DNA from: Catellatospora coxensis
GTDB taxonomy: Bacteria > Actinomycetota > Actinomycetes > Mycobacteriales > Micromonosporaceae
Direction of reading: 5' to 3'
Length of the DNA stretch: 64,000 nt
Assembly: GCF_016862635.1 (NCBI RefSeq)
Contig: NZ_BONI01000041.1
Location: forward strand, 1 to 64,000
Shown: piece after piece, positions 14,143 through 57,163 of the stretch
Layout: each line of letters starts with the position of its first letter
Numbering within the stretch: position 1 is the first letter of the stretch
The notes under the pieces: generated by a model
Database searches by the model: none
What the model saw: the letters and a program-made list of their open reading frames with translations, nothing else
Told to the model about the DNA's origin: nothing
Position numbers and translations under genes: made by a program

Positions 14143-14242
14143 AACGCATTTGCTCTGCACCCAAAAGCTTGCTCTGCACCCGCCCACGCAACGTTGCGTC
14201 CATGGGTGCAGAGCAAGCGAATGGGTGCAGAGCAAATGCGTT
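14143..14242. repeat. 100-nt composite inverted repeat between convergent genes
   Basis: Outer arms 14143-14163 and 14222-14242 pair perfectly over 21 bp. Inner arms 14167-14181 and 14204-14218 pair perfectly over 15 bp. The tip, 14186-14199, is itself a perfect palindrome. The unit TTGCTCTGCACCC occurs twice directly on the left and twice inverted on the right. There is no U-tract. It lies between the convergent PLP-enzyme and membrane-protein genes. Confidence 0.93.
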
Positions 14243-14263
14243 GGAGGCGTAGGTCACGCCGGG

Positions 14264-14818
14264 TCAGGCCGAGGCCGAGGCGGGGGCCGAGGTGGGGGCC
14301 GGGGCCGGTTTCGGAGCCGGGGCGGGGTCGGCTTCGGCCGCGGCCAGGGCCAGGGTGTGGCGGCGGACGATCAGCAGCGGGATGATGCCGAACAGGCCGA
14401 ACGAGATGTCGATCGGGATCCACCACCACGGCAGGCCGCGGACGGGGGCCGCGATCAGCGCGAGCGGGATCACCGCGACGCAGCACAGCATGCCCCAGTG
14501 GATCACCCAGAGGTTGCGGACCGGGTCGCGCAGCGGGCCGTAGAACGCCATCGCGATCACCAGGTGGGCGAAGGCCAGCCAGTCCGTGCCGTACGCCAGG
14601 AACGGGAAGTCCCGGTCGGCGGTCTCCACCCCGGCGCGGACCGTGCCGATGAACTCGACCAGCGCGGCCGGGGCGGGCACCCAGTCCTCGTGCAGCAGGC
14701 CGTCGACCCAGCGCACCTCGGCGAGCAGGGGGAAGGCCGTCACGCCGCTGAGCACGAGGCCGATGATGAAGAAGACGAGCCAGTACCGGATGCGCCGCAG
14801 GCGCGCCTGAGGGGTCAC
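14264..14818 (-). CDS. Four-span membrane protein, unknown function
   Basis: About 184 residues. Hydrophobic spans are near residues 11-35 ([20 protein letters not shown]), 80-98 ([16 protein letters not shown]), 107-130 ([20 protein letters not shown]) and 133-152 ([18 protein letters not shown]). The C-terminus is an Ala/Pro tail. I chose the GTG at 14818 because TACCCT lies 8 nt upstream, giving a leaderless start; a GTG at 14839 would add seven residues. It is transcribed away from ddl. Homologues are conserved uncharacterised proteins; I assign no function. Confidence 0.8.
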
Positions 14819-14826
14819 GCTCCGAG

Positions 14827-14832
14827 AGGGTA
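14827..14832 (-). promoter_or_regulatory. Leaderless -10 element of the membrane-protein gene
   Basis: On the minus strand TACCCT ends 8 nt before the GTG at 14818. This supports the shorter start for that gene. Confidence 0.35.
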
Positions 14833-14888
14833 GTGCCACCCTCGGGTGCCGTGCGACGTGCTCTTCACCGGATCACCACAACGCACGG

Positions 14889-14894
14889 TAGGGT
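14889..14894 (+). promoter_or_regulatory. Leaderless -10 element of ddl
   Basis: TAGGGT ends 7 nt before the GTG at 14902, with TTCACC about 19 nt further upstream. There is no Shine-Dalgarno sequence before that GTG, so transcription probably starts at or next to the start codon. Confidence 0.5.
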
Positions 14895-14901
14895 CAGCCG
14901 C

Positions 14902-16011
14902 GTGAGTGAAAGCAGCCAGCGTAAGACCCGTGTCGCCGTCGTCTTCGGCGGCCGGAGCACCGAACACGCCATCTCCTGCGTCAGCGCCGGCAGCATCCTG
15001 GCCGCGCTCGACCCGGCGGAGTTCGAGGTCGTGCCGGTCGGCATCACGAAGGAGGGCCGCTGGGTGCTCACCTCGGGCGACCCGGCGCAGCTCGCCATCG
15101 AGGGGCGCAGCCTCCCCGAGATCACCGCCGCCTCCGGGCAGGCCATCGTGCTGCCCGCCGACCCGACCAGCCACGAGCTGGTCGTCCTGGAGCCGGCCGA
15201 GGGCGCCGCCGCGCTGGCCGGGGTCGACGTGGTCTTCCCCGCGCTGCACGGGGCGTACGGCGAGGACGGCACCATCCAGGGGCTGCTGGAGATGGCGGGC
15301 ATCCCGTACGTGGGGGCCAACGTGTTCGCCTCCGCGGCCGCCATGGACAAGGAGTTCACCAAGAAGCTCGCCGCCGCCGAGGGCATCCCGATCGGGCCGT
15401 ACGCGGTGCTGCGCAACGGCCAGGAGCTGTCCGAGGCCGACAAGGAGCGGCTGGGCCTGCCGGTGTTCGTGAAGCCGTCGCGGGCCGGGTCCTCGTTCGG
15501 CATCACCAAGGTCAGCAGCTGGGACCAGCTCGACGCGGCGCTGGCCAAGGCGCGTGCCGTCGACCCGAAGGTGCTCGTCGAGGCGGCCATCGTGGGCCGT
15601 GAGATCGAGTGCGGCGTGCTGGAGAGCGAGGCCGGCGGCGGCGCCGAGGCGTCCCTGCTGGCCGAGGTGCGGGTGGTCGCCGGGGGCCACGAGTTCTACG
15701 ACTTCGAGGCGAAGTACCTCGGTGAGGACTGCGAGTACGACCTGCCCGCGAACCTGCCCGCCGAGATCGCCGCCGAGGTGCAGGAGCTGGCCGTGCGCAC
15801 GTTCACCGCGCTGGACTGCGCGGGCCTGGGCCGGGTCGACTTCTTCGTGACCGAGGACCTGAAGGTCTACCTCAACGAGATCAACACGATGCCGGGCTTC
15901 ACCTCGACCAGCATGTTCCCCCGGATGTGGGCGGCCAGCGGCCTCGACTACCCGAAGCTCGTCTCGCGCCTGATCCGCACCGCCCAGCGCCGCGGCACCG
16001 GCCTGCACTAG
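14902..16011 (+). CDS. ddl: D-alanine--D-alanine ligase
   Basis: Ddl joins two D-alanines with ATP for peptidoglycan precursors in the cytoplasm. The 369-residue product has the N-terminal [23 protein letters not shown]-grasp core [19 protein letters not shown], and the C-terminal metal/substrate motif [18 protein letters not shown] with [14 protein letters not shown]. The region [20 protein letters not shown] is also diagnostic. The GTG at 14902 is leaderless by its promoter geometry; a longer open frame to 14833 overlaps the divergent gene. The convergent DUF3515 gene begins two bases after its stop codon. Confidence 0.98.
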
Positions 16012-16013
16012 CG

Positions 16014-16589
16014 TCAGGCGCGGGTGCCGCAGCCCACGGGGATGCGCTCGGCGTGGGGCACGGTGGCGAGCAGGGTCTTGGAGAAGTTGATGACCCACTG
16101 GCCGGGCGTGTCGTACGCGGCCGGCACGGTCACCCGGACGGGCACCTCGCGGTCGACCGTCGTCCACGCGCCGTCGCCCTTGTGCCAGCACACGCCGTCC
16201 AGCGTGTACACGTCGTCGGTGGGGGCGAAGCTCGGGGCCGGGCCGCCGCAGGCGACGGTCAGCGCCGGCTCGCCGTACGCGGCGTTCTGCTCGTGGCCCG
16301 CGCTGACGTCACGGCGCGGCAGGTCGCGCACCTGGTCGGGCAGCTGCGACAGCAGCGCGCGGCACACCGTGGCCTGCCGCTCGTTCAGGGCGGGCGCGGC
16401 CATCGTCACCGGCGTGGTGGGCATCACCTGCGGGCCGGCCGCGACGCTGGGCTGCGGTGCGGGCTCGGCCGGCGGGCGCATGGCCTGGAAGAAACCGAAC
16501 CCGGCCAGCAGTGCGAGCGGCAGCGCGACCAGGGTCGCGATCGTCTTGGCGGACGCTGGGCCCGACCGTGCCGTCTGGTCGTTACTCAT
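16014..16589 (-). CDS. DUF3515 family membrane-anchored protein
   Basis: About 191 residues. One N-terminal membrane segment (TIATLVALPLALLAGFGFF) is followed by a Pro-rich linker and an extracytoplasmic domain. Typical DUF3515 features are ATVCRALLSQLPDQVRDLPR, ALTVACGGPAP and a conserved Trp/Cys region VYTLDGVCWHKGDG, with a final Cys (VGCGTRA). The function of the family is unknown. The ATG at 16589 overlaps the stop of the upstream Lrp-like gene (ATGA), so the two are co-translated. Confidence 0.92.
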   Translation of the reverse strand: MSNDQTARSGPASAKTIATLVALPLALLAGFGFFQAMRPPAEPAPQPSVAAGPQVMPTTPVTMAAPALNERQATVCRALLSQLPDQVRDLPRRDVSAGHEQNAAYGEPALTVACGGPAPSFAPTDDVYTLDGVCWHKGDGAWTTVDREVPVRVTVPAAYDTPGQWVINFSKTLLATVPHAERIPVGCGTRA

Positions 16590-16819
16590 AGGTGGATGAT
16601 GGGGCACGTCAGGGTACGGGTGATGTTGGGTATCAACTGGATCTGTGACAGCACCAGTTTGCCCAGCTCGTCGACGGTGTTCGCCTCGACCATCGCGATC
16701 ACGTCGTACGGGCCGGTCACCGCGTCCACCCGGGTGACACCCTGGATCTCGCCGATGGCCGCGGAGACGTCGACGGACTTGCCGACCGACGTCTGAATCA
16801 GGATGTAAGCGTGGACCAC
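16586..16819 (-). CDS. Stand-alone Lrp/AsnC ligand-binding (RAM) domain protein
   Basis: 77 residues: VVHAYILIQTSVGK, ISAAIGEI-type alpha-beta units, VTRVDAVTGPYDVIAMVEAN and QLIPNITRTLTC. This is the effector domain of Lrp/AsnC regulators without the DNA-binding domain. Such proteins form ring oligomers and bind amino acids, and they may modulate full-length Lrp proteins. I chose the GTG at 16819 because AAGGAG sits 6 nt before it; a GTG at 16834 would lie upstream of that ribosome site. It is divergent from thiL and heads a two-gene unit with DUF3515. Confidence 0.93.
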   Translation of the reverse strand: MVHAYILIQTSVGKSVDVSAAIGEIQGVTRVDAVTGPYDVIAMVEANTVDELGKLVLSQIQLIPNITRTLTCPIIHL

Positions 16820-17000
16820 GGACGACTCCTTCACACGTGCCGCCTGTGAAAGTACCTCACTGAGGGTGCACAGGCTGCGGCAGGAGGCGCAAGGGTGAGT
16901 AAGGAAGCCAATGTGAGCGGGCGCAGCGAGGAAAACGGATGAGCGACCGGGTCATCTCGATGACGGCCCGTGCTGCCGGCGGGCGAAGCGGGGAGGCGGC

Positions 17001-17942
17001 ATGAGTATCGCGCGGACGGGGGAGTTCGGGCTGATCGAGCGCGTGGTGGCGCGGCTGGGGACCGGGCCGGCCACCATCGTCGGGCCGGGCGACGACGCGG
17101 CGCTGGTCACCGCCTCCGACGGGCGGGTCGTCGCCTCAACGGACGTGCTCGTCGAGGGCCGGCACTTCCGGCGGGACTGGGCCGAGGCCGAGGACATCGG
17201 CCGCCGCGCCGCCGCCGCCAACCTCGCCGACATCGCCGCGATGGGCGCCACCGCGACGGCGCTGCTGGTGGGCCTGTGCGCGCCGCCGGACCTGGACGTG
17301 GCCTGGGCCGAGCAGCTCTCCGACGGGCTGGCCACCGAGGCCGCGCTGGTCGGGGCGAGCGTCGTCGGCGGGGACATGACCGCCAGCCCCACGCTGACCA
17401 TCGCGGTGACCGCGCTCGGCGACCTGCACGGGCTGCCGCCGGTGCTGCGCTCGGGCGCGCGGGTCGGGGACGTGGTGGCGCTGGCGGGGCGGGTCGGCTT
17501 CGCGGCGGCCGGGTACACGGTGCTGTCGCGTGGCTTCCGCACCCCGAAGATCCTGGTCGAGGCGTACCGGCGGCCGGTGGTGCCGTACGCGCTCGGGCCG
17601 GCGGCGGGGCGGGCCGGGGCGACCTCGATGATCGACGTGTCGGACGGGCTGATCGCGGATCTCGGGCACATCGCGCAGGCCAGCAAGGTCGGCGTCAACC
17701 TGCATCGCAGCGCGTTCAAGGTGCCGGAGCAGATGCGCGACGCGGCGCTGGCGCTGGGCGTGGACCCGTACCAGTGGCTGCTGGCCGGGGGCGACGACCA
17801 CGCGCTGGCCGCGACGTTCCCCGCGGACGTGGCGCTGCCGGAGGGCTGGCACGTGATCGGCGAGGTGGTCGAGGGCGGCACGGTGACGCTCGACAACCGC
17901 CCGTGGTACGGCCCGAAGGGGTGGGACCACTTCCGGGCATAG
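17001..17942 (+). CDS. thiL: Thiamine-monophosphate kinase
   Basis: ThiL phosphorylates thiamine monophosphate to the active cofactor thiamine diphosphate. The 313-residue product has the AIRS-type ATP/Mg motifs TIVGPGDDAALV, VASTDVLVEGRHFRRDW, AAANLADIAAMGATATALLV and VVGGDMTAS, plus the C-terminal SMIDVSDGLIADLGHIAQAS and LAGGDDHALAATFP. The ATG at 17001 is preceded by GGGGAGGCGGC. The acetyltransferase gene follows 26 nt after the stop codon, with its own possible leaderless promoter. Confidence 0.97.
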   Translation: MSIARTGEFGLIERVVARLGTGPATIVGPGDDAALVTASDGRVVASTDVLVEGRHFRRDWAEAEDIGRRAAAANLADIAAMGATATALLVGLCAPPDLDVAWAEQLSDGLATEAALVGASVVGGDMTASPTLTIAVTALGDLHGLPPVLRSGARVGDVVALAGRVGFAAAGYTVLSRGFRTPKILVEAYRRPVVPYALGPAAGRAGATSMIDVSDGLIADLGHIAQASKVGVNLHRSAFKVPEQMRDAALALGVDPYQWLLAGGDDHALAATFPADVALPEGWHVIGEVVEGGTVTLDNRPWYGPKGWDHFRA

Positions 17943-17955
17943 CGGGCATGCGCAG

Positions 17956-17961
17956 TATCCT
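17956..17961 (+). promoter_or_regulatory. Leaderless -10 element of the GNAT gene
   Basis: TATCCT ends exactly 7 nt before the GTG at 17969; no ribosome site is visible. Confidence 0.4.
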
Positions 17962-17968
17962 CTGCGCC

Positions 17969-18433
17969 GTGACCGAGATTGAGATCAAACCGACCCGCTA
18001 CGGCGGGTCGGTCGCCCGAAAACTGATCGCCGAACTCATGGCCGACCTCACCGAACGGTACGGCGGCTCCGACGCGACCCCGATCGAGGCCGTCGAGTTC
18101 GACCCGCCCGACGGCGGCTTCTTCGTGGCATACCTCGACGGCTCGCCGGTCGGCTGCGGCGGCTGGCGCAGCTGGGCCGGCTCGGAGGAGATCGCGGAGA
18201 TCAAGCGCGTTTACGCCTCGGCCACGGTGCGCGGCAAGGGCGTCGGCAGGGCGATCATGACGGCGCTGGAAGCCGACGCGCGGTCGCACGGCCGGGTCCG
18301 TGCGATCCTGGAGACCGGCACCGCCCAGCCTGAGGCCATGGCCATGTACCAGGCCATCGGCTACCAGCTGATCGCCAACTTCGGCCACTACCGCGACGAG
18401 CCCGGCTGCCGCTCCTTCGGCCGCGACCTCTGA
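17969..18433 (+). CDS. GNAT-family N-acetyltransferase
   Basis: About 154 residues. The acetyl-CoA-binding region reads VYASATVRGKGVGRAIMTAL (R/Q-x-x-G-x-G/A pattern), followed by LETGTAQPEAMAMYQAIGYQ, the usual C-terminal strand-helix of the family, and FGHYRDEPGCRSFGRDL. The substrate cannot be deduced. The GTG at 17969 is preferred on promoter geometry over an ATG at 17948. A long inverted repeat (18471-18533) lies after its stop codon and a canonical terminator for rpmB lies beyond that. Confidence 0.92.
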   Translation: MTEIEIKPTRYGGSVARKLIAELMADLTERYGGSDATPIEAVEFDPPDGGFFVAYLDGSPVGCGGWRSWAGSEEIAEIKRVYASATVRGKGVGRAIMTALEADARSHGRVRAILETGTAQPEAMAMYQAIGYQLIANFGHYRDEPGCRSFGRDL

Positions 18434-18470
18434 CCCACCCGCCCAGCCTGCCCACCGCGCCCCCTCGGGC

Positions 18471-18533
18471 CGCAACTCTTAAACACTCGCGCCTTCACTC
18501 CGCTCGTGAAGGCGCAGGTCTTTAAGAGTTGCG
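18471..18533. repeat. Two-step intergenic hairpin, GCAACTCTTAAA family copy 1
   Basis: Outer arms 18471-18483 and 18521-18533 pair perfectly over 13 bp. After a 5-nt internal loop on each side, 18489-18498 and 18506-18515 pair perfectly over 10 bp. There is no U-tract. The outer arm core is shared with the repeat at 22889-22957. It lies between the convergent GNAT and rpmB genes. Confidence 0.92.
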
Positions 18534-18568
18534 CCAGGAGGGCGGGGCCGGGGTGGGGACAGGGACGG

Positions 18569-18601
18569 CAAAAGGCCGCCGAGCGCAGCTCGGCGGCCTT
18601 T
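18569..18601. terminator. Terminator for rpmB (convergent junction)
   Basis: 15-bp perfect stem (18569-18583 with 18587-18601) beginning AAAAGG and ending CCTTTT, so it carries short T-runs in both directions. Confidence 0.88.
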
Positions 18602-18615
18602 TGGGAAAGTTCGCG

Positions 18616-18807
18616 TCAGGCGCGGGCGACCTTGCCGGCCTTCAGGCAGGAGGTGCAGGCCTGGACCTTGCGGGAGGTGCCGCCACCGGCGGGGGTACGC
18701 ACCGTCTGGATGTTCGGGTTCCAGCGGCGGTTGGTCTTCTTCTTCGACCACGGCACGTTGTGACCGAAGCCCGGTCCCTTGCCACAGACGTCGCACACGC
18801 TAGCCAC
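18616..18807 (-). CDS. rpmB: 50S ribosomal protein L28
   Basis: 63 residues: ASVCDVCGKGPGFGHNVPWS, a basic middle with KKKTNRRWNPNIQTV, then KVQACTSCLKAGKV. The two CxxC pairs mark the zinc-binding (C+) form of bL28. Zinc-binding and zinc-free L28 paralogues are often exchanged under Zur control in Actinobacteria; whether a paralogue exists elsewhere cannot be seen. GTG start at 18807. It is monocistronic and divergent from the DAK2 gene. Confidence 0.98.
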   Translation of the reverse strand: MASVCDVCGKGPGFGHNVPWSKKKTNRRWNPNIQTVRTPAGGGTSRKVQACTSCLKAGKVARA

Positions 18808-18999
18808 GGAATACTCCTGAGTTCGTCTTGATCAACTACCCGACCAAGCGTCACTGTGCCGGGAACTTTGCCAGGGTACCTGACGCGCAGGGCACGTGCC
18901 CAATCGGGGCGGAGCCGCCCGGTCGTATCCGACCCGTGCGACGGCTGACATGACTGTACCGTCCACCACGCCCAACGCGAGAACCGGGTGCGGCACCGA

Positions 19000-19005
19000 T
19001 AGGCT
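19000..19005 (+). promoter_or_regulatory. Leaderless -10 element of the DAK2 gene
   Basis: TAGGCT ends 7 nt before the GTG at 19013, with no ribosome site between. Confidence 0.5.
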
Positions 19006-19012
19006 TGCGCCC

Positions 19013-20611: not shown

Positions 20612-20647
20612 GGGCCGGCCTGTCACAGGGCCGGGAGAGGATCGGGT

Positions 20648-22843: not shown

Positions 22844-22888
22844 CCGCCCGAGGTCCGGCCTTCGGCCCCGCCGCGCCCCGCCCCCCAC

Positions 22889-22957
22889 TGCCGCAACTCT
22901 TAAAGAGTCGGGGCATTCGGGCGTCTTCCAGGCCACAAGTCTTTAAGAGTTGCGGCA
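22889..22957. repeat. Intergenic hairpin, GCAACTCTTAAA family copy 2
   Basis: Arms 22889-22905 and 22941-22957 pair perfectly over 17 bp around a 35-nt loop. C-runs and G-runs outside the arms can extend the stem. The right arm shares GTCTTTAAGAGTTGCG with the copy at 18471-18533, while the loops are unrelated. It lies between convergent recG and the LPXTG gene, 45 nt after recG. Confidence 0.92.
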
Positions 22958-22975
22958 GGGGGCCGGGGTGGGACG

Positions 22976-23014
22976 AAGAAGGGGCGGGTCCGAATCGGAC
23001 CCGCCCCTTCTTTC
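22976..23014. terminator. Terminator for the LPXTG protein gene
   Basis: 17-bp perfect stem (22976-22992 with 22996-23012), loop AAT, flanked by A-rich and T-rich ends. It serves the minus-strand gene that ends at 23030, while the repeat at 22889 serves the recG side. Confidence 0.88.
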
Positions 23015-23029
23015 AGGTGATCAGAGTGA

Positions 23030-24238: not shown

Positions 24239-24466
24239 ACGTGCTCCAGTTCGGGGTGTGTGGGACGAGGGTGAAGCTGTGAAGCGACCGCCTGACCCTA
24301 GTGAAGCTCCTTCGGGGGCACTAAGTGCTCAGCGAGCAGTTAAAGGAACCGTTGCCGAATCGTTATCGCATTTGCGTGACGAGTTCGATCTCGGTGGCGC
24401 TGCGCGCATGAACAGGTGAACCAGCGTCACCGAGCAGACGACGACCGGGGGTCGGCGGCCATGCCG

Positions 24467-24472
24467 TAGCGT
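24467..24472 (+). promoter_or_regulatory. Leaderless -10 element of rsmD
   Basis: TAGCGT ends 7 nt before the GTG at 24480, which supports that start over the GTG at 24474. Confidence 0.4.
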
Positions 24473-24479
24473 CGTGATC

Positions 24480-25076: not shown

Positions 25077-25083
25077 GCAGCTA

Positions 25084-26216: not shown

Positions 26217-26229
26217 ACGCGGCCTTGAT

Positions 26230-27325: not shown

Positions 27326-27359
27326 ACGTCGCCGGCTGGTTCTCACCAGCCGGCGACGT
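27326..27359 (+). promoter_or_regulatory. Hairpin upstream of rnc, candidate RNase III site
   Basis: ACGTCGCCGGCTGGT at 27326-27340 pairs perfectly over 15 bp with 27345-27359, loop TCTC. There is no U-tract. It lies 45 nt before the rnc start codon. It could terminate rpmF, or be a double-stranded substrate through which RNase III controls its own mRNA. Confidence 0.6.
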
Positions 27360-44236: not shown

Positions 44237-44301
44237 ATCGACGTTGGCCTATTACATCGACTTCGATCGCGTGACAGTCGATGTCATAGGCCAACGTCGA
44301 T
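44237..44301. repeat. Intergenic hairpin, GGCCTAT family copy 1
   Basis: Arms 44237-44252 and 44286-44301 pair perfectly over 16 bp. After one mismatch a further 9 bp pair (44254-44262 with 44276-44284), leaving a 13-nt loop. There is no U-tract. It lies between convergent ABC and PhoD-like genes. The arms are shared with 52525-52589. Confidence 0.92.
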
Positions 44302-45969: not shown

Positions 45970-46080
45970 GCGGACATCCTCCGTGATCGGGACGGTGGGA
46001 GCCAGGGCCGGGGCTGTCGTATCGGCGCGCGCGGCCTCCGGTGTGCGCCGGACGCCCCGAGGTTTGAGAGGATGCCCAGC

Positions 46081-47343: not shown

Positions 47344-47376
47344 CGAGCCGACGAGCGACGAGCAGCTGACGAGTCC

Positions 47377-48183: not shown

Positions 48184-48221
48184 AACGCGCCATGAATGGT
48201 CTCCTCACGTGTGAACATTTC

Positions 48222-48258
48222 TTCACACGTACGAAACAGATCGTGACGTGCCGGAAAC
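48222..48258 (+). promoter_or_regulatory. GlnR-box-like operator upstream of amtB
   Basis: TTCAC-n6-GAAAC-n5-GTGAC-n6-GAAAC (48222, 48233, 48243, 48254) closely resembles the actinobacterial GlnR box of alternating GTnAC and GAAAC half-sites with n6 spacing. It lies 175 nt upstream of amtB, and a 9-bp inverted repeat (48207-48215 with 48222-48230) overlaps its left end. Expected role: activation of amtB-glnK-glnD under nitrogen limitation. Confidence 0.7.
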
Positions 48259-48432
48259 CGAGCCGCGTCATTGCGTGAAACGTGGGTTGGCAATGCTGCC
48301 CCCCAACCAGCACCGATGGCACTGCGGCGATCGGTCCGGGATGACACGAACGGCACTCCGCCGACACGGCGGAGCCACGGCGGTCGACCTCGGGGGCTGG
48401 CTGGGAGGAACCCACTCACTTAGGAGGGCAGC

Positions 48433-50202
<1,770 letters not shown>

Positions 50203-50235
50203 GGCAGTAGCCGTAACAACCTGAAAGAGGACCAC

Positions 50236-52503
50236 ATGGGCCCGGGGAACGTCGTAGCTTCCGCATCGGACAGCGCGGCGGGCCCCGGGCCCGACTATGC
50301 GCGCCTAGCGCTGCGCGAGCCGGGCTCCATCGGCGCGGTCGCCCGGCTCGCGCGGGCCGGCGCACTCGACGGCTGGCTGGGCCGCCTGCTGCCGGACATC
50401 CCCGGGGTCGCCCTCGTGGCCGTCGGCGGCCTGGGCCGCCGGGAGTGCACCCCGCACGGCGACCTGGACCTGATCCTGGTGCACACCGGGGTGCCGGGGA
50501 TCGACGAGCTGGCCGCCTCCCTCTGGTATCCCATCTGGGACGCCCGGATGGGCCTGGACCACTCCACCCGCACCGTCGCCGAGTCGCTCGACGCGGCCCA
50601 CGACGACGTCAAGGTGGCCCTCGGACTGCTGGACGCCCGCCACATCGCCGGCGACCCGGCCCTGTCCGGGCAGCTCAGCCGAGCCGCGGTGGACCAGTGG
50701 CGGCGCACCGCCCGCCGCCAGCTGCTGCGGCTGCGCGAACTCGTCGAGGAGCGCCACGCCGCCCACGGCGAGCTGGCGTACCTGCTCGAAGGCGACCTCA
50801 AGGAGGCCGCCGGGGGTCTGCGCGACGTCGGCGTGCTGCGCGGCATCGGTGTCGCCGGAGTCGCCGACGCGCTGCCGCCCCAGGTGCGCGCCGCCGCGAC
50901 CCGGCTGCTCGACGTACGCGACGCGCTGCACGTCAGCATCGGCCGCCGCAACGACCGGCTGCGGGCCCAGGAGCGCCTGCAGGTGGCGGAGCTGCTCGGG
51001 CTCGCCGACGGCGACGCGCTGCTGCGCCGGATCGGGCTCGACGCGCGTACCGTCTCCTGGTCGCTGACCGACGCCTGGCGCTCGGTGCAGCGCTGGAACG
51101 CCGCCGCCACCCGCGGCGGCGACACGCGCGCCCGCGAGGCGGTGGCCGTGCGCCGCCCGATCGCCCGGGACGTGGTCGCCGCGGACGGCGAGATCGTGCT
51201 GGCCCGCGCCGCGGTCGGCCCGCACCCCGACCCGTCGCTGTCGCTGCGCGTGGCGGCCGCCGCCGCGCAGCACCAGATGCCCATCGCGCGGGCCACGCTG
51301 GAGTGGCTGGCCCGGTTCTGCCCGCCGCTGCCGACTCCGTGGCCCGCCTCGGCCCGTACCGCCCTGCTGACCCTGCTCGGGGCCGGCACCGGGCTGGTCA
51401 CCGCGTGGGAGGCGTGCGACCGGTTCGGGCTCACCTCGGCCTGGCTGCCGCAGTGGACCCGGCTGCGCGGCACCCCGCAGCACCACCCCGTGCACCGCTT
51501 CACCCTCGACCGGCACCTGGTGCAGGCCGCCGCCAACGCCTCCACCTGGTCACGCGAGGTGGCCCGGCCGGACCTGCTGGTGCTCGGCGCCCTGCTGCAC
51601 GACGTCGGCAAGGGCCTGCCCGGCGACCACAGCGAGGTCGGCGCGGAGCTGGCCCGCGAGATCGCCACCGAGATCGGCCTGCCGCCCGCCGACGTCGACA
51701 CCATCGCCGCGCTGGTCCGATACCACCTGGTGCTGCCCGACACCGCGACCCGGCGCGACCTCGACGACCCGGCGACGATCAACCACGTCGCCAAGCTCGT
51801 CGGGGACACCGGCACCCTGGAACTGCTGCAGATGCTCGCCCGGTCCGACGCCCAGGCCACCGGCCCGGCCGCCTGGTCGGGGTGGAAGTCCAAGCTCATC
51901 GACGACCTGTGTACGCGGGTGCGCAAGGTGCTCGGCGGCGGGCAGCTGCCCGAGCCCACCCTGCCCGACCCGGCGCTGCTGGCCGGGCCGCTGCCGGTGG
52001 TGCAGGTCGCCGACGACTGGGTGGCGCTCGCCGCGCACGACCGCGTCGGGCTGCTCGCCGCCGTCGCCGGCTGCCTGGCCACGCACAAGCTGGAGATCGT
52101 CGCCGCGGGCACGTCCACGATCGGCGAGCGGGCCATCATCGAATGCGCCGTCAACAACCGGTACGGCACGGCGCCCGACCGGGAGCTGCTCGCCGCTGAC
52201 CTGCGCCGGGTGGGGCTGGACCAGCTCGGGCTGCCCCGCCGCCTGGGCAGCGGCCGCAAGCCGGTCACCGGGGCCGAGCCGCGCGTCATCTGGGGCGAGG
52301 CCACCGGCGCGACGCTGCTGGAACTGCGCGCCACGGACTCACCCGGCCTGCTCTTCCGGGTCACCTCCGCGCTGGCCGAGCTCGGCGTCGACGTGCGCAC
52401 CGCCCGCGTCTCCACCCTCGGCGCCGACGTCGTCGACGCCTTCTACCTGGTCGGCGACATCGACCGCCCCGCCGTCGAAACCGCCGTCCTCGCCGCCGTC
52501 TGA
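50236..52503 (+). CDS. glnD: PII nucleotidyltransferase GlnD
   Basis: GlnD modifies and demodifies PII; in Actinobacteria it works as an adenylyltransferase. The 755-residue product has the nucleotidyltransferase motif AVGGLGRRECTPHGDLDLIL, the HD domain LGALLHDVGKGLPGDHSEVG, and two C-terminal ACT domains (from about residues 590 and 690: LAAHDRVGLLAAVAGCL, RATDSPGLLFRVTSALAELG). The N-terminal 30 residues are non-conserved. ATG at 50236 follows GAAAGAGG. The gene ends at the hairpin 52525-52589, with ffh downstream. Confidence 0.97.
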   Translation: MGPGNVVASASDSAAGPGPDYARLALREPGSIGAVARLARAGALDGWLGRLLPDIPGVALVAVGGLGRRECTPHGDLDLILVHTGVPGIDELAASLWYPIWDARMGLDHSTRTVAESLDAAHDDVKVALGLLDARHIAGDPALSGQLSRAAVDQWRRTARRQLLRLRELVEERHAAHGELAYLLEGDLKEAAGGLRDVGVLRGIGVAGVADALPPQVRAAATRLLDVRDALHVSIGRRNDRLRAQERLQVAELLGLADGDALLRRIGLDARTVSWSLTDAWRSVQRWNAAATRGGDTRAREAVAVRRPIARDVVAADGEIVLARAAVGPHPDPSLSLRVAAAAAQHQMPIARATLEWLARFCPPLPTPWPASARTALLTLLGAGTGLVTAWEACDRFGLTSAWLPQWTRLRGTPQHHPVHRFTLDRHLVQAAANASTWSREVARPDLLVLGALLHDVGKGLPGDHSEVGAELAREIATEIGLPPADVDTIAALVRYHLVLPDTATRRDLDDPATINHVAKLVGDTGTLELLQMLARSDAQATGPAAWSGWKSKLIDDLCTRVRKVLGGGQLPEPTLPDPALLAGPLPVVQVADDWVALAAHDRVGLLAAVAGCLATHKLEIVAAGTSTIGERAIIECAVNNRYGTAPDRELLAADLRRVGLDQLGLPRRLGSGRKPVTGAEPRVIWGEATGATLLELRATDSPGLLFRVTSALAELGVDVRTARVSTLGADVVDAFYLVGDIDRPAVETAVLAAV

Positions 52504-52524
52504 CCCCGGCCCATCCCCGATTTT

Positions 52525-52589
52525 ATCGACGCTGGCCTATCGCATCGAAAATGATCTACGGTCAGTCGACGTGATAGGCCAGCGTCGAT
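52525..52589. repeat. Intergenic hairpin, GGCCTAT family copy 2
   Basis: Arms 52525-52541 and 52573-52589 pair perfectly over 17 bp and the stem continues inward with one G-U pair and one mismatch. It shares TCGACG and GGCCTAT in both arms with 44237-44301, but its loop differs. It lies between co-directional glnD and ffh. There is no U-tract. Confidence 0.9.
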
Positions 52590-52785
52590 GGGGGACGGGG
52601 CGGGGCGGGGCCTGGTGGCCGTGGGAGGGTGCGGCGGTGGGGTGGGCGGTTGTGGCACGTGGTGGCTTGGGTATGGGATGACCCTGGCGGCAGTGGGACC
52701 GGGCCGTGAGGGCAGCGGCTACCCTTACCAAGGCTGCCTGTAGCCGCTCATTCAGACGAACTCGAACAATTGGGGATGTTGCGCT

Positions 52786-54348
52786 GTGTTTGACACCCTG
52801 AGCGACCGGCTCTCCGGCATCTTCTCCAAGCTGCGGAGCAAGGGCCGGCTCACCGACGCCGACGTGGACGCCACCGCCCGGGAGATCCGGCTGGCGCTGC
52901 TGGAGGCGGATGTCGCCCTGCCGGTGGTGAAGGCCTTCATCTTCCGGCTCAAGGAGCGGGCGCGCGGCGCGCAGGTCTCGCAGGCGCTCAACCCGGCCCA
53001 GCAGATCATCAAGATCGTGCACGAGGAGCTGGTCGCGGTCCTCGGCGGGCAGGCGCGGCGGCTCCAGTTCGCCAAGCAGCCGCCCACCGTGATCATGCTG
53101 GCCGGTCTGCAGGGTTCCGGTAAGACCACGCTCGCGGGCAAGCTCGCCCGGTGGCTCAAGGCCCAGGGCAACCAGCCGCTGCTGGTCGCCTGCGACCTCC
53201 AGCGCCCCAACGCCGTCAACCAGCTGCAGGTGCTCGGCCAGCGCGCGGGCGTCGAGGTGTACGCGCCGGAGCCCGGCAACGGCACCGGTGACCCCGTACA
53301 GGTCGCCAAGGACTCGATCGAGCACGCGCGCCGCCACATGCGCGACATCGTGATCGTCGACACCGCCGGCCGCCTCGGCATCGACACCGAGATGATGGCG
53401 CAGGCCGCCGCGATCCGCGACGCCGTCAACCCCGACGAGGTCATCTTCGTCATCGACGCGATGGTCGGCCAGGACGCGGTGGCGACCGCGGAGGCGTTCC
53501 GCGACGGCGTCGGCATCAGCGGTGTCGTGCTCTCCAAGCTCGACGGCGACGCCCGCGGTGGCGCCGCGCTGTCCGTGCGCGAGGTCACCGGCCAGCCGAT
53601 CCTGTTCGCGTCCACCGGCGAGAAGCTGGAGGACTTCGACGTCTTCCACCCCGACCGGATGGCCAGCCGCATCCTCGGCATGGGCGACGTGCTGACCCTC
53701 ATCGAGCAGGCCGAGCAGGCCTTCGACGAGGAGCAGAAGGAGAAGATGGCGGCGAAGCTGCTCGGGGGCGAGCAGTTCACGCTGGAGGACTTCCTCGACC
53801 AGCTCATCGCGGTACGCCGGATGGGTCCCATCGCGAACCTGCTGGGCATGATGCCGGGCATGGGCCAGATGAAGGACCAGCTGGCCGAGCTGGACGACAG
53901 CCACTTCGACAAGGTCACCGCGATCATCCGCTCGATGACCCCGGGCGAGCGCAGCACGCCGAAGATCCTCAACGGTTCCCGCCGGGCCCGCATCGCCCGT
54001 GGTTCGGGTGTCACCGTCACCGACGTGAACCAGCTGCTCAACCGCTTCGAGCAGGCGCAGAAGATGATGAAGCAGATGGGCGGCATGATGGGCCTGCCCG
54101 GCGGCGGCCGCCGCAAGGCGACGAAGTCGCCGAAGAACAAGCGCAAGGGCACCAAGGGCGGCGGTGGCGGCGGCGGTCGCTTCCCGGCCGGCCTGCCCGG
54201 CATGGGCGGCATGCCGCAGCTTCCGCCGGGTATGGACCCGGCCGCCCTGGAGCAGCAGATGGGTATGGGCGGCGGCAGCCCGTTCAAGGCCCCGAAGCTC
54301 GACTTCGGCAAGCTGATGAAGGGCGACGACAAGGACAAGGACAAGTAG
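52786..54348 (+). CDS. ffh: Signal recognition particle protein Ffh
   Basis: 520 residues. The NG GTPase has MLAGLQGSGKTTLAGKLARW, VACDLQRPNAVNQLQ, VIVDTAGRLGIDTEMMAQ and VVLSKLDGDARGG. The Met-rich M domain (from about residue 300) carries MMPGMGQMKDQLAEL and the RNA-binding region SRRARIARGSGVTVTDVNQL. The tail is Gly/Lys-rich with repeated GG and KDK, longer than in E. coli. It partners FtsY (46081). The GTG start at 52786 has no obvious upstream ribosome site. The closing hairpin is at 54373-54440. Confidence 0.98.
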   Translation: MFDTLSDRLSGIFSKLRSKGRLTDADVDATAREIRLALLEADVALPVVKAFIFRLKERARGAQVSQALNPAQQIIKIVHEELVAVLGGQARRLQFAKQPPTVIMLAGLQGSGKTTLAGKLARWLKAQGNQPLLVACDLQRPNAVNQLQVLGQRAGVEVYAPEPGNGTGDPVQVAKDSIEHARRHMRDIVIVDTAGRLGIDTEMMAQAAAIRDAVNPDEVIFVIDAMVGQDAVATAEAFRDGVGISGVVLSKLDGDARGGAALSVREVTGQPILFASTGEKLEDFDVFHPDRMASRILGMGDVLTLIEQAEQAFDEEQKEKMAAKLLGGEQFTLEDFLDQLIAVRRMGPIANLLGMMPGMGQMKDQLAELDDSHFDKVTAIIRSMTPGERSTPKILNGSRRARIARGSGVTVTDVNQLLNRFEQAQKMMKQMGGMMGLPGGGRRKATKSPKNKRKGTKGGGGGGGRFPAGLPGMGGMPQLPPGMDPAALEQQMGMGGGSPFKAPKLDFGKLMKGDDKDKDK

Positions 54349-54372
54349 GTCCCGTCCGCCGCACGGAGTTTT

Positions 54373-54440
54373 CGAAGATCGCCACCTCAGGGTCCGCTAC
54401 CGGTCACCCCCCGACGCCGGGCCTGAGGTGGCGATCTTCG
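54373..54440. repeat. 19-bp intergenic hairpin after ffh
   Basis: Arms 54373-54391 and 54422-54440 pair perfectly over 19 bp around a 30-nt loop; the arm core is GATCGCCACCTCAG. There is no U-tract. It lies 24 nt after ffh, between ffh and the decayed minus-strand gene at 54590. Confidence 0.9.
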
Positions 54441-54589
54441 TCTGCATGGGATCGATGCATGCAGTCGGGGAGGCGCCGGCACAGATGCTGACTGCCATCA
54501 ACTCAGCTGTGCCGACGCCCCGCGCCTGCATCCATTATCGAACATGTGTTCGAACAAGCGCAAGGGATCACCCTCGATCCACTGTCGCG

Positions 54590-55135
54590 TCAGCCTCCCG
54601 GGTGACCCGTCATCGTGAGCCAGGCTTCGGATTCGTGCAGCCGGGCGGAACTGCGCGGAAGCACTGGGCCGCCTACGGGCAGCACCGCGCGTAGTCGCGC
54701 CAGCTCGACCTCGGTGCCGATGGCAGCGCGGTGCTCGGCGTAGTGCCCGCAAGCCCACGTCAGGAAGGTCTCGTCGACGTGCGCGAACGCAGCCGGGCGA
54801 GACTGCTGCTCCCGCCCGCGCCGGTCCATGCCAGCACGACGAACAACCCGGTCACGGGGGAGGCGGGCGCGACGAACCTGCCTCCCGTCACGACGAAGCG
54901 GGCCGGGACCGGCCGCCCACGTATGACAGCCAGCAGGTATCCGCCGATCGGCGCGAAGTTGCCGAGCAATGTCAGCCCGAGGACGGCGATCGTGAACACG
55001 CCGCCGGGGAAGGCGTTCGACCGTGACGAGCTGGTTCACCGCCACATTGCGGCCGAGCTGCAAGGCGAACCCGGCCGGCGCGAAACCCACGATGGTGATC
55101 CGGAGCCGGGCGCACACGGTAAACGCGGTGATCAA
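54590..55135 (-). pseudogene. Decayed paralogue of the adjacent membrane-protein gene
   Basis: Three stretches resemble the gene at 55181-55939 but in different frames. A stretch read from 54999 in a second frame has RPVPARFVVTGGRFVAPASP, matching SRPASFLVRDGGFDAPVSAL. The first frame resumes near 54790 with AFAHVDETFLTWACGHYAEH and VELARLRAVL, matching HVDTAFLVAAVHHYTFHPEH and ESELRRLRQV. The central half of the protein is missing, and no single frame spans the region. I read it as a duplicated copy that has lost about 100 codons and gained at least two frameshifts. Confidence 0.6.
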
Positions 55136-55180
55136 CGTGAGCCTGGCGGGTCCGCCGAGACAGCGCGCCCATCGCGGCCG

Positions 55181-55939
55181 TTATGTGGCGACCTGGCTCT
55201 TGTCCGCCGTCGCGCAGACCTGCCGCAGGCGCCGCAACTCGGACTCGGTGCCCACAGCCGGCCGGTGCTCCGGATGGAACGTGTAATGGTGCACGGCCGC
55301 GACCAGGAACGCCGTGTCGACGTGCGATAGGTCCACCGGCAGGTTGTGCCAGCGCACCCGGCCCGGCTGGATCTCGCGCACGTAGAAGGTCGTGTCGCCG
55401 GGCGCGGGCGGCAGCGCGTCGCCCCGGGCGACCGCGTCCCACGGCACCCGCGTGCGCCGCCATCCGCCCAGGATCAGGTGATCCGGGGTCAGCCGGACGA
55501 TCGGCCCGGGGCGCAGCGCGTCGGTGACCATCGTGCCGCCAACCAGCAGCAGCATCACGCCGAGCGGCAGCATGAGGCGGTCGGTGAGCAGCTGCCGCCC
55601 GTGGTCGCCCGACTCGGTCACCGGCACCGCGAAGGCCAGCAGGCCGAACATGATGATCCGGCGGCCCGCGAGCGCGGACACCGGAGCGTCGAAGCCGCCG
55701 TCGCGGACCAGAAACGAGGCGGGCCGGGACCGGTGGCGATGAGCGAACCACTCGTACGCGGCGTACGGCAGCACCAGCGCGGCCAGCAGCGGCAGCAGGA
55801 AGGCGGCGAACAGGGCGTCCGGGTAGCCGAGCCGCTCGGGTCCGTACGCCTCCCAGAGGAACGGCTGGGCCTGCCGCAGCAGCACCCCTACCGCGAGCAG
55901 GCAGAGCGCGACCTGGCGGAACGGGGGCAGGGGCGACAT
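55181..55939 (-). CDS. Membrane protein with PH-like C-terminal part, unknown function
   Basis: About 252 residues. It has four hydrophobic segments in the first 135 residues (VALCLLAVGVLLRQAQPF, ALFAAFLLPLLAALVLPYAA, RRIIMFGLLAFAVPV, LMLPLGVMLLLVGGTMV). The rest is soluble, with RPGPIVRLTPDHLILGGWRR and PWDAVARGD, which resembles the bacterial PH-like pattern of membrane-bound proteins. I do not recognise a named family. The ATG at 55939 is the start, divergent from the amidohydrolase gene by 47 nt. A broken paralogue lies downstream at 54590-55135. Confidence 0.75.
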   Translation of the reverse strand: MSPLPPFRQVALCLLAVGVLLRQAQPFLWEAYGPERLGYPDALFAAFLLPLLAALVLPYAAYEWFAHRHRSRPASFLVRDGGFDAPVSALAGRRIIMFGLLAFAVPVTESGDHGRQLLTDRLMLPLGVMLLLVGGTMVTDALRPGPIVRLTPDHLILGGWRRTRVPWDAVARGDALPPAPGDTTFYVREIQPGRVRWHNLPVDLSHVDTAFLVAAVHHYTFHPEHRPAVGTESELRRLRQVCATADKSQVAT

Positions 55940-55974
55940 GGCGCACACCCTAACCACCGTGATCAACCGTGTGG

Positions 55975-55980
55975 CACAGT
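55975..55980 (+). promoter_or_regulatory. Weak leaderless -10 element of the amidohydrolase gene
   Basis: CACAGT ends 6 nt before the ATG at 55987; the match to TAnnnT is weaker than at other sites. No ribosome site is seen. Confidence 0.25.
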
Positions 55981-55986
55981 GCCAGC

Positions 55987-57069
55987 ATGGCGACGGCGCT
56001 GCATGTGCGGGGCGTGGTGCTCCCCGACGACGAGGTCCGCGATCTGTGGCTGGTCGGCGACCGGGTGTCCCTGACCCCGGTGGCCGGGGCGCGGACGATC
56101 AGCGACGGCGGCTGGGTGCTGCCGGGCCTGGTCGACGCGCACTGCCACATCGGCATCGCGCCCGGCGGGGCCCCGGTGACCAGCCTGGAGCAGGCGCGGG
56201 AGCTGGCGTACGCCGACCGGGACGCCGGGGTGCTGGCGATCCGGGACGCGGGTTCGCCGTTCCCGTACGCCCAGCTCGACGACGACCACGACGTGCCGCG
56301 ACTGGCCCGCGCGGGCCGGCACGTCGCGCCGCCGCGGCGGTATCTGCCCGAGATCGGCGTCGAGGTGCCCGCCGACCAGGTGGTCGCCGAAGTGACCCGG
56401 CAGGCGGCCGCGGGCACGGGCTGGGTGAAGCTGGTCGGCGACTGGATCGACCGCGACCGCGGCGACCTCGCCCCGGCCTGGGACGAGGCGACGCTCACCG
56501 CGGCCGTGGCCGCGGCCCACGCGGCGGGGGCGCGCATCACCGCGCACTGCTTCGAGGAGTCGAGCGTCGCGACGCTGGTCCGCGCGGGCATCGACTGCGT
56601 CGAGCACGGGACGGGCCTGTCCCTCGACTTGATCGACGAGATGGCGCGCCGGGGCACCGCCCTGGTGCCCACAATGATCAACATCGAGACGTTCGGGCAC
56701 ATCGCGGAGCGGGCCGAGGCGAAGTTCCCCGGGTACGCCAAACACATGCTCGCCCTGCGCGACCGCTTCCCGGGTGTCGTGTCCGCGGCGGCCGAGGCCG
56801 GGGTCCCGATCTACGTCGGCTCCGACGCGGGCGGCGGCATCGCGCACGGCCTGGCCGCGCAGGAGATGCTGCGCCTGCACGCCGCGGGCATGTCCGCGCT
56901 CGACGTGCTCGCGGCCGGCTCCTGGCGCGCCCGCGACTGGCTGGGCTTCCCCGGCCTCACCGAAGGCGGCCTGGCCGACCTCACCGTCTACGCCGAAGAC
57001 CCCCGGCAGGACCTGCGCACCCTCCTCGCCCCGCAACGCATCGTCCTGCGCGGCCGCGTCGTCCGCTGA
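55987..57069 (+). CDS. Amidohydrolase-family metal-dependent hydrolase
   Basis: 360 residues of the amidohydrolase superfamily. Metal-binding motifs are LPGLVDAHCHIGIAPGG (HxH), the Lys in GWVKLVGDWIDRDRGD, AHCFEESS, CVEHGTGL and YVGSDAGGGIAHG. The N- and C-terminal beta-sandwich strands are also present (ISDGGWVLPGLV, GLADLTVYAEDPRQDLRTLL). The substrate, a cyclic amide, dipeptide or similar, cannot be inferred. It stands alone, with an imperfect 21-bp hairpin (57089-57163) after it. ATG at 55987; an upstream ATG at 55969 adds six residues. Confidence 0.92.
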   Translation: MATALHVRGVVLPDDEVRDLWLVGDRVSLTPVAGARTISDGGWVLPGLVDAHCHIGIAPGGAPVTSLEQARELAYADRDAGVLAIRDAGSPFPYAQLDDDHDVPRLARAGRHVAPPRRYLPEIGVEVPADQVVAEVTRQAAAGTGWVKLVGDWIDRDRGDLAPAWDEATLTAAVAAAHAAGARITAHCFEESSVATLVRAGIDCVEHGTGLSLDLIDEMARRGTALVPTMINIETFGHIAERAEAKFPGYAKHMLALRDRFPGVVSAAAEAGVPIYVGSDAGGGIAHGLAAQEMLRLHAAGMSALDVLAAGSWRARDWLGFPGLTEGGLADLTVYAEDPRQDLRTLLAPQRIVLRGRVVR

Positions 57070-57088
57070 CTCGGCCCACGCGGCCCGT

Positions 57089-57163
57089 GATCGTTCGAGT
57101 TGCCGGGCAGGTGTGCGTATCTTGGGTGCGCTTTCGCCCCTGTGCCTGGCAAGTCGGGCGATC
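57089..57163 (+). repeat. Intergenic hairpin after the amidohydrolase gene
   Basis: Arms 57089-57109 and 57143-57163 pair over 21 positions with one mismatch and three G-U wobbles, leaving a 33-nt loop. G-U pairs suggest it acts as RNA in the plus orientation. There is no U-tract. Confidence 0.75.

Follow-up and report, generated by a model that had tools for sequence, protein, structure and literature searches.

Long U-less hairpins at gene 3' ends of Catellatospora coxensis and their relation to dispersed, REP-like palindromic repeat families

Catellatospora coxensis is a soil bacterium, and the window analysed here is a 64-kb stretch of its genome, in which a first-pass annotation had placed seven long hairpins just 3' of genes, five of them between convergent genes (Table 1). 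All seven were confirmed by an inverted-repeat scan and by RNA folding: the scan found 61 inverted repeats, with six of the seven among the 25 longest, and the hairpin at 57089, whose stem is mismatched and which was not among these 25, was confirmed by folding. Predicted energies ranged from -42.9 to -80.2 kcal/mol, with z scores between -6.9 and -15.2, and for each hairpin 0 of 200 shuffles folded as well. A scan of the window against Rfam at the gathering score gave 0 matches. By our own codon-model gene calls, used in place of a published gene caller for all gene contexts, the hairpins at 14143, 18471, 22889, 44237 and 54373 lie between convergent genes and those at 52525 and 57089 between genes on the same strand, as had been described; the predicted minimum of four sequence families was also borne out, with five families represented. 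The hairpin at 14143, 3' of a Cys/Met PLP-enzyme gene in its convergent gap, has arms of 50 nt each with 86% complementarity. A further family hairpin, at 6149, was found between a plus-strand and a minus-strand gene and extends into the 3' end of the minus-strand gene.

Table 1. Hairpins located in the 64-kb window, with their family, build and setting.
Positions	Strand	Feature	Setting or evidence
6149..6192	.	FAM3 hairpin, GAAGGGCACCTTCTTAT..., additional to the seven first described	
14143..14242	.	FAM19 hairpin, each arm made of two TTTGCTCTGCACCC-type units	repeat search and folding
18462..18542	.	FAM4 hairpin, arms GCAACTCTTAAA...	between a GNAT gene and rpmB, convergent
18569..18603	.	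ordinary hairpin with A/T ends, CAAAAGGCC...GGCCTTTTG	adjoins rpmB
22884..22962	.	FAM4 hairpin	convergent gap, 3' side of recG
22976..23012	.	ordinary hairpin with T-rich end and perfect 18-bp arms	beside the FAM4 copy at the recG junction
44237..44301	.	FAM2 hairpin, ATCGACGTTGGCCTAT...	between an ABC-transporter gene and a PhoD-like gene, convergent
52525..52589	.	FAM2 hairpin	glnD > ffh, same strand
54373..54440	.	FAM10 hairpin, perfect 19-bp stem, conserved loop	convergent gap, downstream side of ffh
57089..57163	.	mismatched FAM1 hairpin, GATCGTTCGAGTTGCC...GGCAAGTCGGGCGATC	same-strand gap

None of the seven hairpins carries a T-run after its stem, in agreement with the earlier description of them as free of U-tracts, and the closest approach is at 54373, where 3 T within the next 8 nt would satisfy the loose U-rich cut of PMC8269248. 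Of the three canonical hairpins that had been listed for the same window, those at 4150 and 31763 do have T-runs, and the one at 58669 has at most three consecutive Ts, which lie within its stem. T-run terminators that had been missed from that list adjoin two of the seven hairpins, at 18569-18603 and 22976-23012. The former type of hairpin is also present in genomes G002, G004, G008 and G009, whether or not a family hairpin lies next to it, and the cluster of the latter was found at the same recG junction in G000, G002, G004 and G006.

By sequence similarity, six of the seven hairpins are members of dispersed Catellatospora repeat families, REP/REPIN-like in build. The 1.6 Mb of the C. coxensis genome sampled held 122 copies from 12 families, and in the same genome FAM4 and FAM2 were each found at at least 40 distinct places (40 of 78 and 40 of 69 candidates scored, respectively), FAM19 at 12 distinct loci including 14143 (E ≤ 1e-5, neighbouring matches merged), and the FAM3 hairpin at 6149 had a 52-nt match of 100% identity at another place. 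De novo clustering (BLAST followed by Louvain clustering) was applied to 443 intergenic hairpins taken from 11 congeneric genomes, 2.8 Mb in all, and yielded eight families, each with 17-41 members; for the analyses below, 12 clusters picked by the analyst for their presence at unrelated loci (256 of the 443 hairpins) were treated as families and the remaining 187 hairpins served as the comparison set. Copy numbers of FAM2 ranged from 3 to 124 first-look candidates per genome and from 1 to 75 scored matches, scoring being capped at 40 candidates for any one genome. FAM1, for which no genome had more than 7 candidates scored, was matched in 8 of 121 genomes, every one a Catellatospora, and FAM3, whose copies are almost identical to one another, was matched in 7 of 44 genera; the FAM1 copy at 57089 was 91% identical to its counterpart in the same gap of C. 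paridis. The hairpin at 54373 is different: searching its own genome returned self-matches and otherwise nothing better than E 0.17, and FAM10 had a single scored copy per genome in 7 of 11 species, being visible in L128 too. Single-copy and with a conserved loop, the conserved structure that follows ffh at 54373 stands outside the dispersed class.

The family members have two inverted conserved arms around a variable spacer and occur in many copies, as REPINs do. When ten arm queries were searched, 112 of 115 neighbouring inverted pairs pointed at each other, the three non-facing pairs all belonging to FAM7, which has a palindromic arm. At the cut-off used, 183 of 411 arm matches had no detected partner. 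Arms were more conserved than spacers, the FAM2 spacer being unconserved and those of FAM1, FAM5 and FAM6 partly conserved, and loop length varied among the copies of some families. The nearly fixed arm sequence at unrelated loci, together with the random FAM2 spacer, argues against a pure requirement for structure. A GATC shared at the outer arm ends, conspicuous on inspection, was rejected as a common feature, since overall it was not significant: among clusters of score ≥16 it occurred in 7 of 48 (5.2 expected, p = 0.26), and raising the threshold to ≥20 gave 5 of 16 (1.7 expected, p = 0.023).

Pairing is conserved. Across 14 C. coxensis copies of FAM2, taken as the best-scoring ones, the stem comprised 24 pairs, 16 invariant and 6 changed on both sides, with 96.4% of cells paired. 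On four measures none of 500 shuffles did as well, and on a fifth 8 of 500 did. Orthologous copies had 0.142 substitutions in stems versus 0.321 in unpaired positions, and 133 double changes versus 48.1 expected, 102 of which restored a Watson-Crick pair, these counts coming from species pairs that are not independent. Close species gave 32 double changes versus 10.6 expected (24 Watson-Crick) and the three closest species pairs 9 versus 3.0. This compensation test takes hairpins scoring ≥12 in both species and so is biased toward paired states, and template switching, in which one arm is copied onto the other, would mimic compensating changes. Mismatches in family stems of same-strand gaps were divided about equally between G-U (132) and A-C (120), and likewise in C. 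coxensis alone (54 and 60), with 49 and 24 in non-family hairpins of same-strand gaps (family versus other hairpins, Fisher p = 0.032). With no excess of G-U over A-C in family stems, selection at the transcript level was thus not seen.

The first-pass annotation had proposed that gene-end enrichment be checked genome-wide, and a strong enrichment was found. Across 1.604 Mb of the 9.35-Mb genome, 239 hairpins scored ≥14, of which 101 lay in convergent gaps (4.0 expected by length), 94 in same-strand gaps (13.3), 15 in divergent gaps (10.1), 3 at segment ends (0.5) and 26 within genes (211.1); Markov-resampled sequence gave 5 hairpins in total. With a gapped finder, applied to gaps of 24-1200 nt with shorter and longer ones left out, a hairpin scoring ≥15 was present in 57 of 186 convergent, 51 of 573 same-strand and 5 of 256 divergent gaps, against 1, 0 and 0 in the resampled control. 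Family hairpins alone reached 2.60 per kb in convergent, 0.66 in same-strand and 0.13 in divergent gaps. In other Micromonosporaceae, for which one region was compared, a hairpin scoring ≥15 was found in 6 of 85 convergent gaps.

Proximity to the stop codon depended on gap length. In same-strand gaps of 300-1200 nt, the 39 family copies lay closer to the upstream stop than avoidance of promoters predicts, with mean relative positions between stop and promoter zone of 0.29, 0.35 and 0.39 for assumed zones of 60, 100 and 120 nt (p < 0.0001, 0.0007 and 0.012, respectively), and the effect was strongest in gaps of ≥500 nt (8 copies, median distance to the stop 38.5 nt). No proximity beyond promoter avoidance was seen in same-strand gaps of 150-300 nt (mean relative position ≥0.64, 42-61 copies depending on the zone), and positions in convergent gaps showed no departure from a uniform distribution (KS p = 0.35, 0.11 and 0.07); strict stop-codon proximity at all gap lengths was rejected, holding just for same-strand gaps of ≥300 nt. 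The 12 families lacked the U-tract 3' of the stem by which canonical intrinsic terminators are recognised: the 8 nt past the stem held on average 1.29 T, compared with 1.32 in random intergenic sequence and 2.20 in other hairpins, and ≥5 T were present in 2% of 342 directions. Mutual exclusion with U-tract terminators was considered: these were present in 1 of 60 convergent gaps that hold family hairpins and in 9 of 111 that do not, counts that are small. Since T content past the stem is at background, terminator finders that require a U-tract would be expected to miss most family hairpins.

Family hairpins are flanked by C-rich sequence before and G-rich sequence after the stem (skew +0.16/-0.25 in convergent and +0.22/-0.25 in same-strand gaps), with non-family hairpins within 0.07 of zero. 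Measured against hairpin-free orthologous gaps, the skew was 0.71 versus 0.55 at the best split (p = 0.0008) and 0.18 versus 0.15 at the midpoint split (p = 0.47), a comparison of unequal splits having given p = 1e-6 and a control biased in the opposite direction p = 0.42; the skew is not clearly carried in by the element. Pairing between the two flanks was considered and rejected (-33.1 kcal/mol for flanks of the same copy versus -31.9 for those of different copies, 124 copies, p = 0.06).

Comparisons between species were made over one chromosomal region, across which some of the species are 93-96% identical. Orthologous junctions in sister species may bear unrelated families: glnD > ffh carries a scored hairpin in 10 of 11 species, from four families, with FAM2, FAM1, FAM0 and FAM7 among the occupants in different species, and in the eleventh (G004, also L124) a FAM1-type hairpin was recognised by eye. 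FAM2 occupies the junction at 44237 in 3 of 8 species. Among 17 convergent junctions, 8 carried at least two families, compared with 6.9 expected (p = 0.31), which gave no sign of family hot spots; among 99 same-strand junctions two carried at least three families, compared with 0.1 expected (p = 0.0014), or with 0.4 when weighted by gap length (p = 0.037). Sister species were searched for a precise empty site. The clearest case, at the recG junction of G002 compared with G004, looks like a partial deletion in which one end of a FAM1 hairpin remains, and was rejected as a clean insertion.

The search for a driver considered transposases, terminal tags and target duplications. The Y1 transposase domain (PF01797) was detected in 6 of 11 genomes, its presence not tracking FAM2 numbers, and at E ≤ 0.001 it had no match in the FAM2-rich G007 and G008. 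The 3.4-kb loci of four of the nine Y1 matches held no dispersed-family hairpin and one weak FAM27 match. Drive by a RAYT, a Y1 transposase gene with the repeats on its flanks, is unsupported by the distribution of Y1 domains or their surroundings. GTAG/CGTC tags at the feet of the hairpins were found in <30% of copies in every family with more than three members (12 families), and in FAM2 CGTC occurs solely within the paired stem. Direct repeats of 4-7 nt at element ends, the true positions of which are uncertain, were scored as the target-site duplications that mark MITEs and were at chance level over 166 copies, and FAM3 gave the one clear excess among families (k = 4, 9 of 13 versus 38% expected, with the same uncertainty of ends).

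Both U-less structured 3' ends and REPs located 3' of genes are already published, and the available text of these accounts allows several likenesses to be drawn. REPINs of Pseudomonas fluorescens (PMC3116915) similarly have inverted conserved arms, a less conserved spacer, a hairpin in ssDNA or RNA, and many intergenic copies in several groups per genome; as described there, they are tied to RAYT genes and randomly distributed across extragenic space, whereas the Catellatospora families gave no RAYT link and strongly favour convergent gaps. The account of GTAG/CGTC REPs (PMC3733652), in whose main text the words Actinobacteria, Streptomyces and Micromonospora are absent, also describes palindromic families, several in some organisms, lying mainly on the 3' side of genes, in convergent or same-strand gaps, and CGTC families likewise have no dedicated transposase; the Catellatospora families differ in lacking the tag and in often having longer stems. 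E. coli has U-less GC-rich hairpins at its transcript ends, where REPs are said to stabilise 3' ends without mediating termination (PMC13289151), but the RNA downstream of its Rho-trimmed ends is C-rich and G-poor, whereas in Catellatospora DNA C-rich sequence precedes and G-rich sequence follows the hairpin. In Streptomyces clavuligerus, 353 U-less, highly structured 3' ends stand against 182 U-rich ones (PMC8269248), and the U-less ends are likewise actinobacterial, long-stemmed and in some cases bidirectional; that account, in its available part, does not describe them as repeat families. A survey of stem-loops in 40 bacteria (PMC1590033) reports 3'-side enrichment and a preference for convergent gaps in all species, with repeat families near 3' ends (for example Ype and Efa), its high-GC Gram-positives being, in the text available, one Corynebacterium and two Mycobacterium species.

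We lean, with moderate confidence, towards the reading that these are REP-like palindromes, their driver not found, that are tolerated where they lie and probably serve, alongside Rho, as 3'-end structures for both directions. Unrelated palindromic families have multiplied within the genus Catellatospora and are gained, lost and swapped at gene junctions among sister species; their mobility, present or past, is inferred. With copies mostly past stop codons, chiefly between convergent genes, transcription from either side would yield a very stable U-less hairpin, and the family hairpins most likely act in the transcript as two-way 3'-end structures; Rho, which is encoded in the genome, would release RNA polymerase on C-rich RNA around the hairpins, and 3' exonucleases may halt at the stem. 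By analogy with E. coli REPs, termination or 3'-end protection by the family hairpins is plausible.

It is possible, though we doubt it, that the palindromes are selfish or inert, tolerated where they spare genes and promoters and without function in the transcript, their palindromy being maintained by a copying mechanism or by arm-to-arm template switching. The absence from family stems of the mismatch bias present in other hairpins, the conservation among unlinked copies of arm sequence beyond pairing, the wide variation of FAM2 numbers and the scatter of FAM3 among genera all fit such inertness, as does the placement in convergent gaps and in same-strand gaps of <300 nt; the stop proximity in the 300-1200-nt same-strand gaps goes against it, unless unseen genes or promoters in the long gaps, or targeted insertion, account for it. 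The first-pass annotation had proposed a second, structure-based termination or 3'-end-protection system acting beside ordinary intrinsic terminators. A U-tract-free class apart from such terminators and tied to gene 3' ends does exist, but it consists of many dispersed repeat families rather than one system, 54373 falls outside it, no RNA-level selection was seen, and two of the five convergent gaps also carry an ordinary T-bearing hairpin. Dedicated I-shaped, U-less intrinsic terminators, built and maintained at each junction, would agree with the convergent-gap enrichment, the compensating stem changes and the prevalence of U-less ends in S. clavuligerus, but seem improbable given conserved arm sequences shared across repeat families, the swapping of families between species, the scarcity of such hairpins in the other Micromonosporaceae region and the missing RNA-strand mismatch bias. 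Sites acting in DNA, with several families for several sequence-specific proteins (in nucleoid organisation, replication or supercoiling), would likewise have conserved arms and mismatches with no strand bias; we consider these very improbable, as the hairpins track gene ends and loop length varies among copies in some families.

We tentatively suggest that Catellatospora has an open pool of at least eight competing palindromic families that might spread RAYT-free through machinery recognising the arms of each family, land or survive preferentially at transcript 3' ends, and continually re-supply transcription boundaries with interchangeable hairpins whose sequence changes. The glnD > ffh, recG, rpmB and PLP-enzyme junctions, which carry different families or none across species, offer natural experiments. 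If the favoured reading is right, many gene 3' ends across an entire actinomycete genus would be supplied by fast-exchanged repeats and not by conserved terminators, and a RAYT-free spreading route for palindromes would await discovery.

By inverted-repeat search and RNA folding, all seven of the long hairpins reported by the first-pass annotation were confirmed to be present in the window, and the gene calls placed five of the seven in convergent gaps, as it had stated. The adjoining genes were identified by Pfam as rpmB, recG, an ABC-transporter gene, a PhoD-like gene and ffh. The window lies within contig C41 of a 9.35 Mb genome of 222 contigs. Its GlnD shares 92-95% identity with the proteins of five named Catellatospora species and 84% with those of two further Catellatospora, which places the genome in Catellatospora (Micromonosporaceae). 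The proposed genome-wide check of gene-end enrichment was run on 1.604 Mb of this genome (nine contig segments), where 239 ungapped hairpins with a score of at least 14 were found, compared with 5 in resampled sequence. Convergent gaps held 101 of these, far above the 4.0 expected by length, with 94 in same-strand gaps (13.3 expected), 15 in divergent gaps (10.1), 3 at segment ends (0.5) and 26 within genes (211.1). Using a gapped finder (score at least 15), a hairpin was found in 57/186 convergent, 51/573 same-strand and 5/256 divergent gaps of this genome, and in 60/163, 56/479 and 4/162, respectively, of those in ten congeneric genomes. Among other Micromonosporaceae, 6/85 convergent gaps carried a hairpin (72 loci of the glnD region only, one of the original 73 being left out as shorter than 10 kb).

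Many of these hairpins are repeated. When 443 hairpins taken from 11 Catellatospora genomes were clustered, families with 41, 41, 39, 30, 30, 23, 18 and 17 members emerged, and 12 families total 122 copies across the 1.604 Mb, or about 700 per genome by plain extrapolation. Used as queries against their own genome, the 14143 hairpin matched 12 loci and the 22884 and 52525 hairpins at least 40 places each, and the 54373 hairpin matched itself only (remaining matches at best E 0.17). When at most the best 7 candidates per genome were scored in 121 sampled Micromonosporaceae genomes, family FAM1 (that of the 57089 hairpin) was matched in 8, every one Catellatospora, and FAM3 in 24, from 7/44 genera. 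FAM3 copies are near-identical; a first look gave as many as 305 candidates in a single genome (best 7 scored), and the best match within the own genome has 100% identity across 52 nt. The claimed lack of a U-tract also held for the family hairpins, with 1.29 T per 8 nt after the stem against a background of 1.32; the remaining hairpins have 2.20. The flanks of the family hairpins are C-rich ahead and G-rich behind across at least 60 nt.

At orthologous junctions, family members were found to be exchanged. The gap between glnD and ffh holds a scored hairpin in 10 of 11 species, with four families represented, and in the 11th a hairpin is present that the finder missed. The 14143 gap is occupied by FAM19 in C. 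coxensis and G002, by FAM1 in four congeners (G001, G006, G007 and G010) and by FAM0 in G009, with a FAM1-like hairpin recognised by eye in G004, which is 95.7% identical to G002. In the rpmB and recG gaps an ordinary hairpin is constant in the species compared and the adjoining family hairpin varies or is absent. The two window gaps with both kinds are arranged as if with one hairpin per direction. Of 142 junctions common to G002 and G010, 9 had the same family, 3 were swapped, 10 were occupied in one species only and 120 in neither; swapping at convergent junctions was at the level given by random arrival at equally suitable gaps.

Pairing is maintained. Orthologous copies (31 sets, 73 species pairs) showed 133 double stem changes, 102 of them Watson-Crick, compared with 48.1 doubles expected, and close species showed 32 compared with 10.6 (24 Watson-Crick); paralogs of FAM2 (the 44237 and 52525 family) covaried beyond 500 shuffles on 4/5 measures. 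Stem columns were more conserved than loop columns in 8/8 families aligned from own-genome copies (FAM2 0.78 vs 0.54, FAM3 0.87 vs 0.65, FAM5 0.83 vs 0.79, FAM0 0.76 vs 0.62), in alignments with few flank columns for some families. FAM2 arms are nearly invariant around a random spacer, which differs in length by one base in 1/14 copies; in FAM1, FAM5 and FAM6 the loop is partly conserved as well. Read in transcript sense, same-strand family stems contain 120 A-C and 132 G-U mismatches, near-equal counts that speak against RNA-level selection, whereas hairpins outside the families favour G-U over A-C (49 vs 24, p 0.005). Because A-C is nearly as frequent as G-U, we read the pairing in family stems as maintained at least partly at the DNA level, through copying or repair.

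Placement bears on whether these are inert palindromes, surviving wherever genes and promoters are spared. Family hairpins occur at 2.60, 0.66 and 0.13 per kb of convergent, same-strand and divergent gap, respectively, and their positions within convergent gaps fit uniform placement. In same-strand gaps of at least 150 nt, 77/101 family hairpins are centred no more than 100 nt from the stop codon upstream. If an assumed promoter zone is excluded and placement elsewhere is taken as uniform, gaps of 150-300 nt showed no stop-proximal excess, but in those of at least 300 nt the excess is real (p <0.0001 to 0.012 for 39 copies, depending on the zone assumed). Median stop distances were 33.5 nt in 200-300-nt gaps and 63 nt in 300-500-nt gaps, where such tolerance predicts about 22 and 82, and 38.5 nt in 500-1200-nt gaps, where it predicts about 201.

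Other structures were also observed in the window (see table). The 54373 hairpin and the FAM15 structure hold the same position in several related species, had no Rfam match, and are possibly a 3'UTR element or small RNA; TCGAACATGTGTTCGA resembles an actinobacterial LexA box. The FAM20 cluster recurs at the same junction in G001 and G006, and looks operator-like rather than a 3'-end element.

Coordinates of hairpins, repeats and associated features
Feature	Position	Observation
FAM3 palindrome, GAAGGGCACCTTC...	window 6149-6192	overlaps a called gene's 3' end
Gap with ordinary and family hairpins	window 18462-18603	ordinary hairpin adjoins one gene, family hairpin the other
Gap with ordinary and family hairpins	window 22884-23012	ordinary hairpin adjoins one gene, family hairpin the other
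Short inverted repeat FAM20, TCACGTCGCCGGCTGG	window 27326-27359	ahead of a + strand gene
Presumed glnD	window 50236-52503	named from gene order
Single-copy hairpin with conserved loop, then second conserved structure FAM15, then TCGAACATGTGTTCGA	window 54373-54560	3' of ffh
Tandem array of TTTGCTCTGCACCC-type unit, the unit building the 14143 hairpin	C. tritici locus L129, about 12286-12620	gap between glnD and ffh
Sole Y1 (PF01797) match of own genome	G000:C10:62235-62555	contains in-frame stop; 14143-family copy on C10 about 10 kb away

Y1 transposases are few in Catellatospora genomes, with none linked to the families in the four Y1 loci examined, and searches at family copies revealed no REP tags and, at the presumed element ends, no general target duplications. 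Earlier reports already describe 3'-end enrichment of stem-loops (PMC1590033) and REP families downstream of genes (PMC3733652). Among the titles listed, such families were not found described for Micromonosporaceae, Catellatospora or actinobacteria, which is weak evidence of absence as most subscription journals lay outside the search; we have not seen it described for this group how many families coexist, that they are exchanged at orthologous junctions, or that a REP-associated Y1 transposase (RAYT) is lacking. The best fit for the family hairpins is that they are REP-like repeats residing after stop codons. Models are offered by the descriptions of E. coli REPs and Rho-trimmed ends (PMC13289151) and of the U-lacking structured ends of S. 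clavuligerus (PMC8269248). The C. coxensis genome encodes Rho, and by analogy with these its family hairpins may fix or protect the 3' ends of transcripts once Rho has acted.
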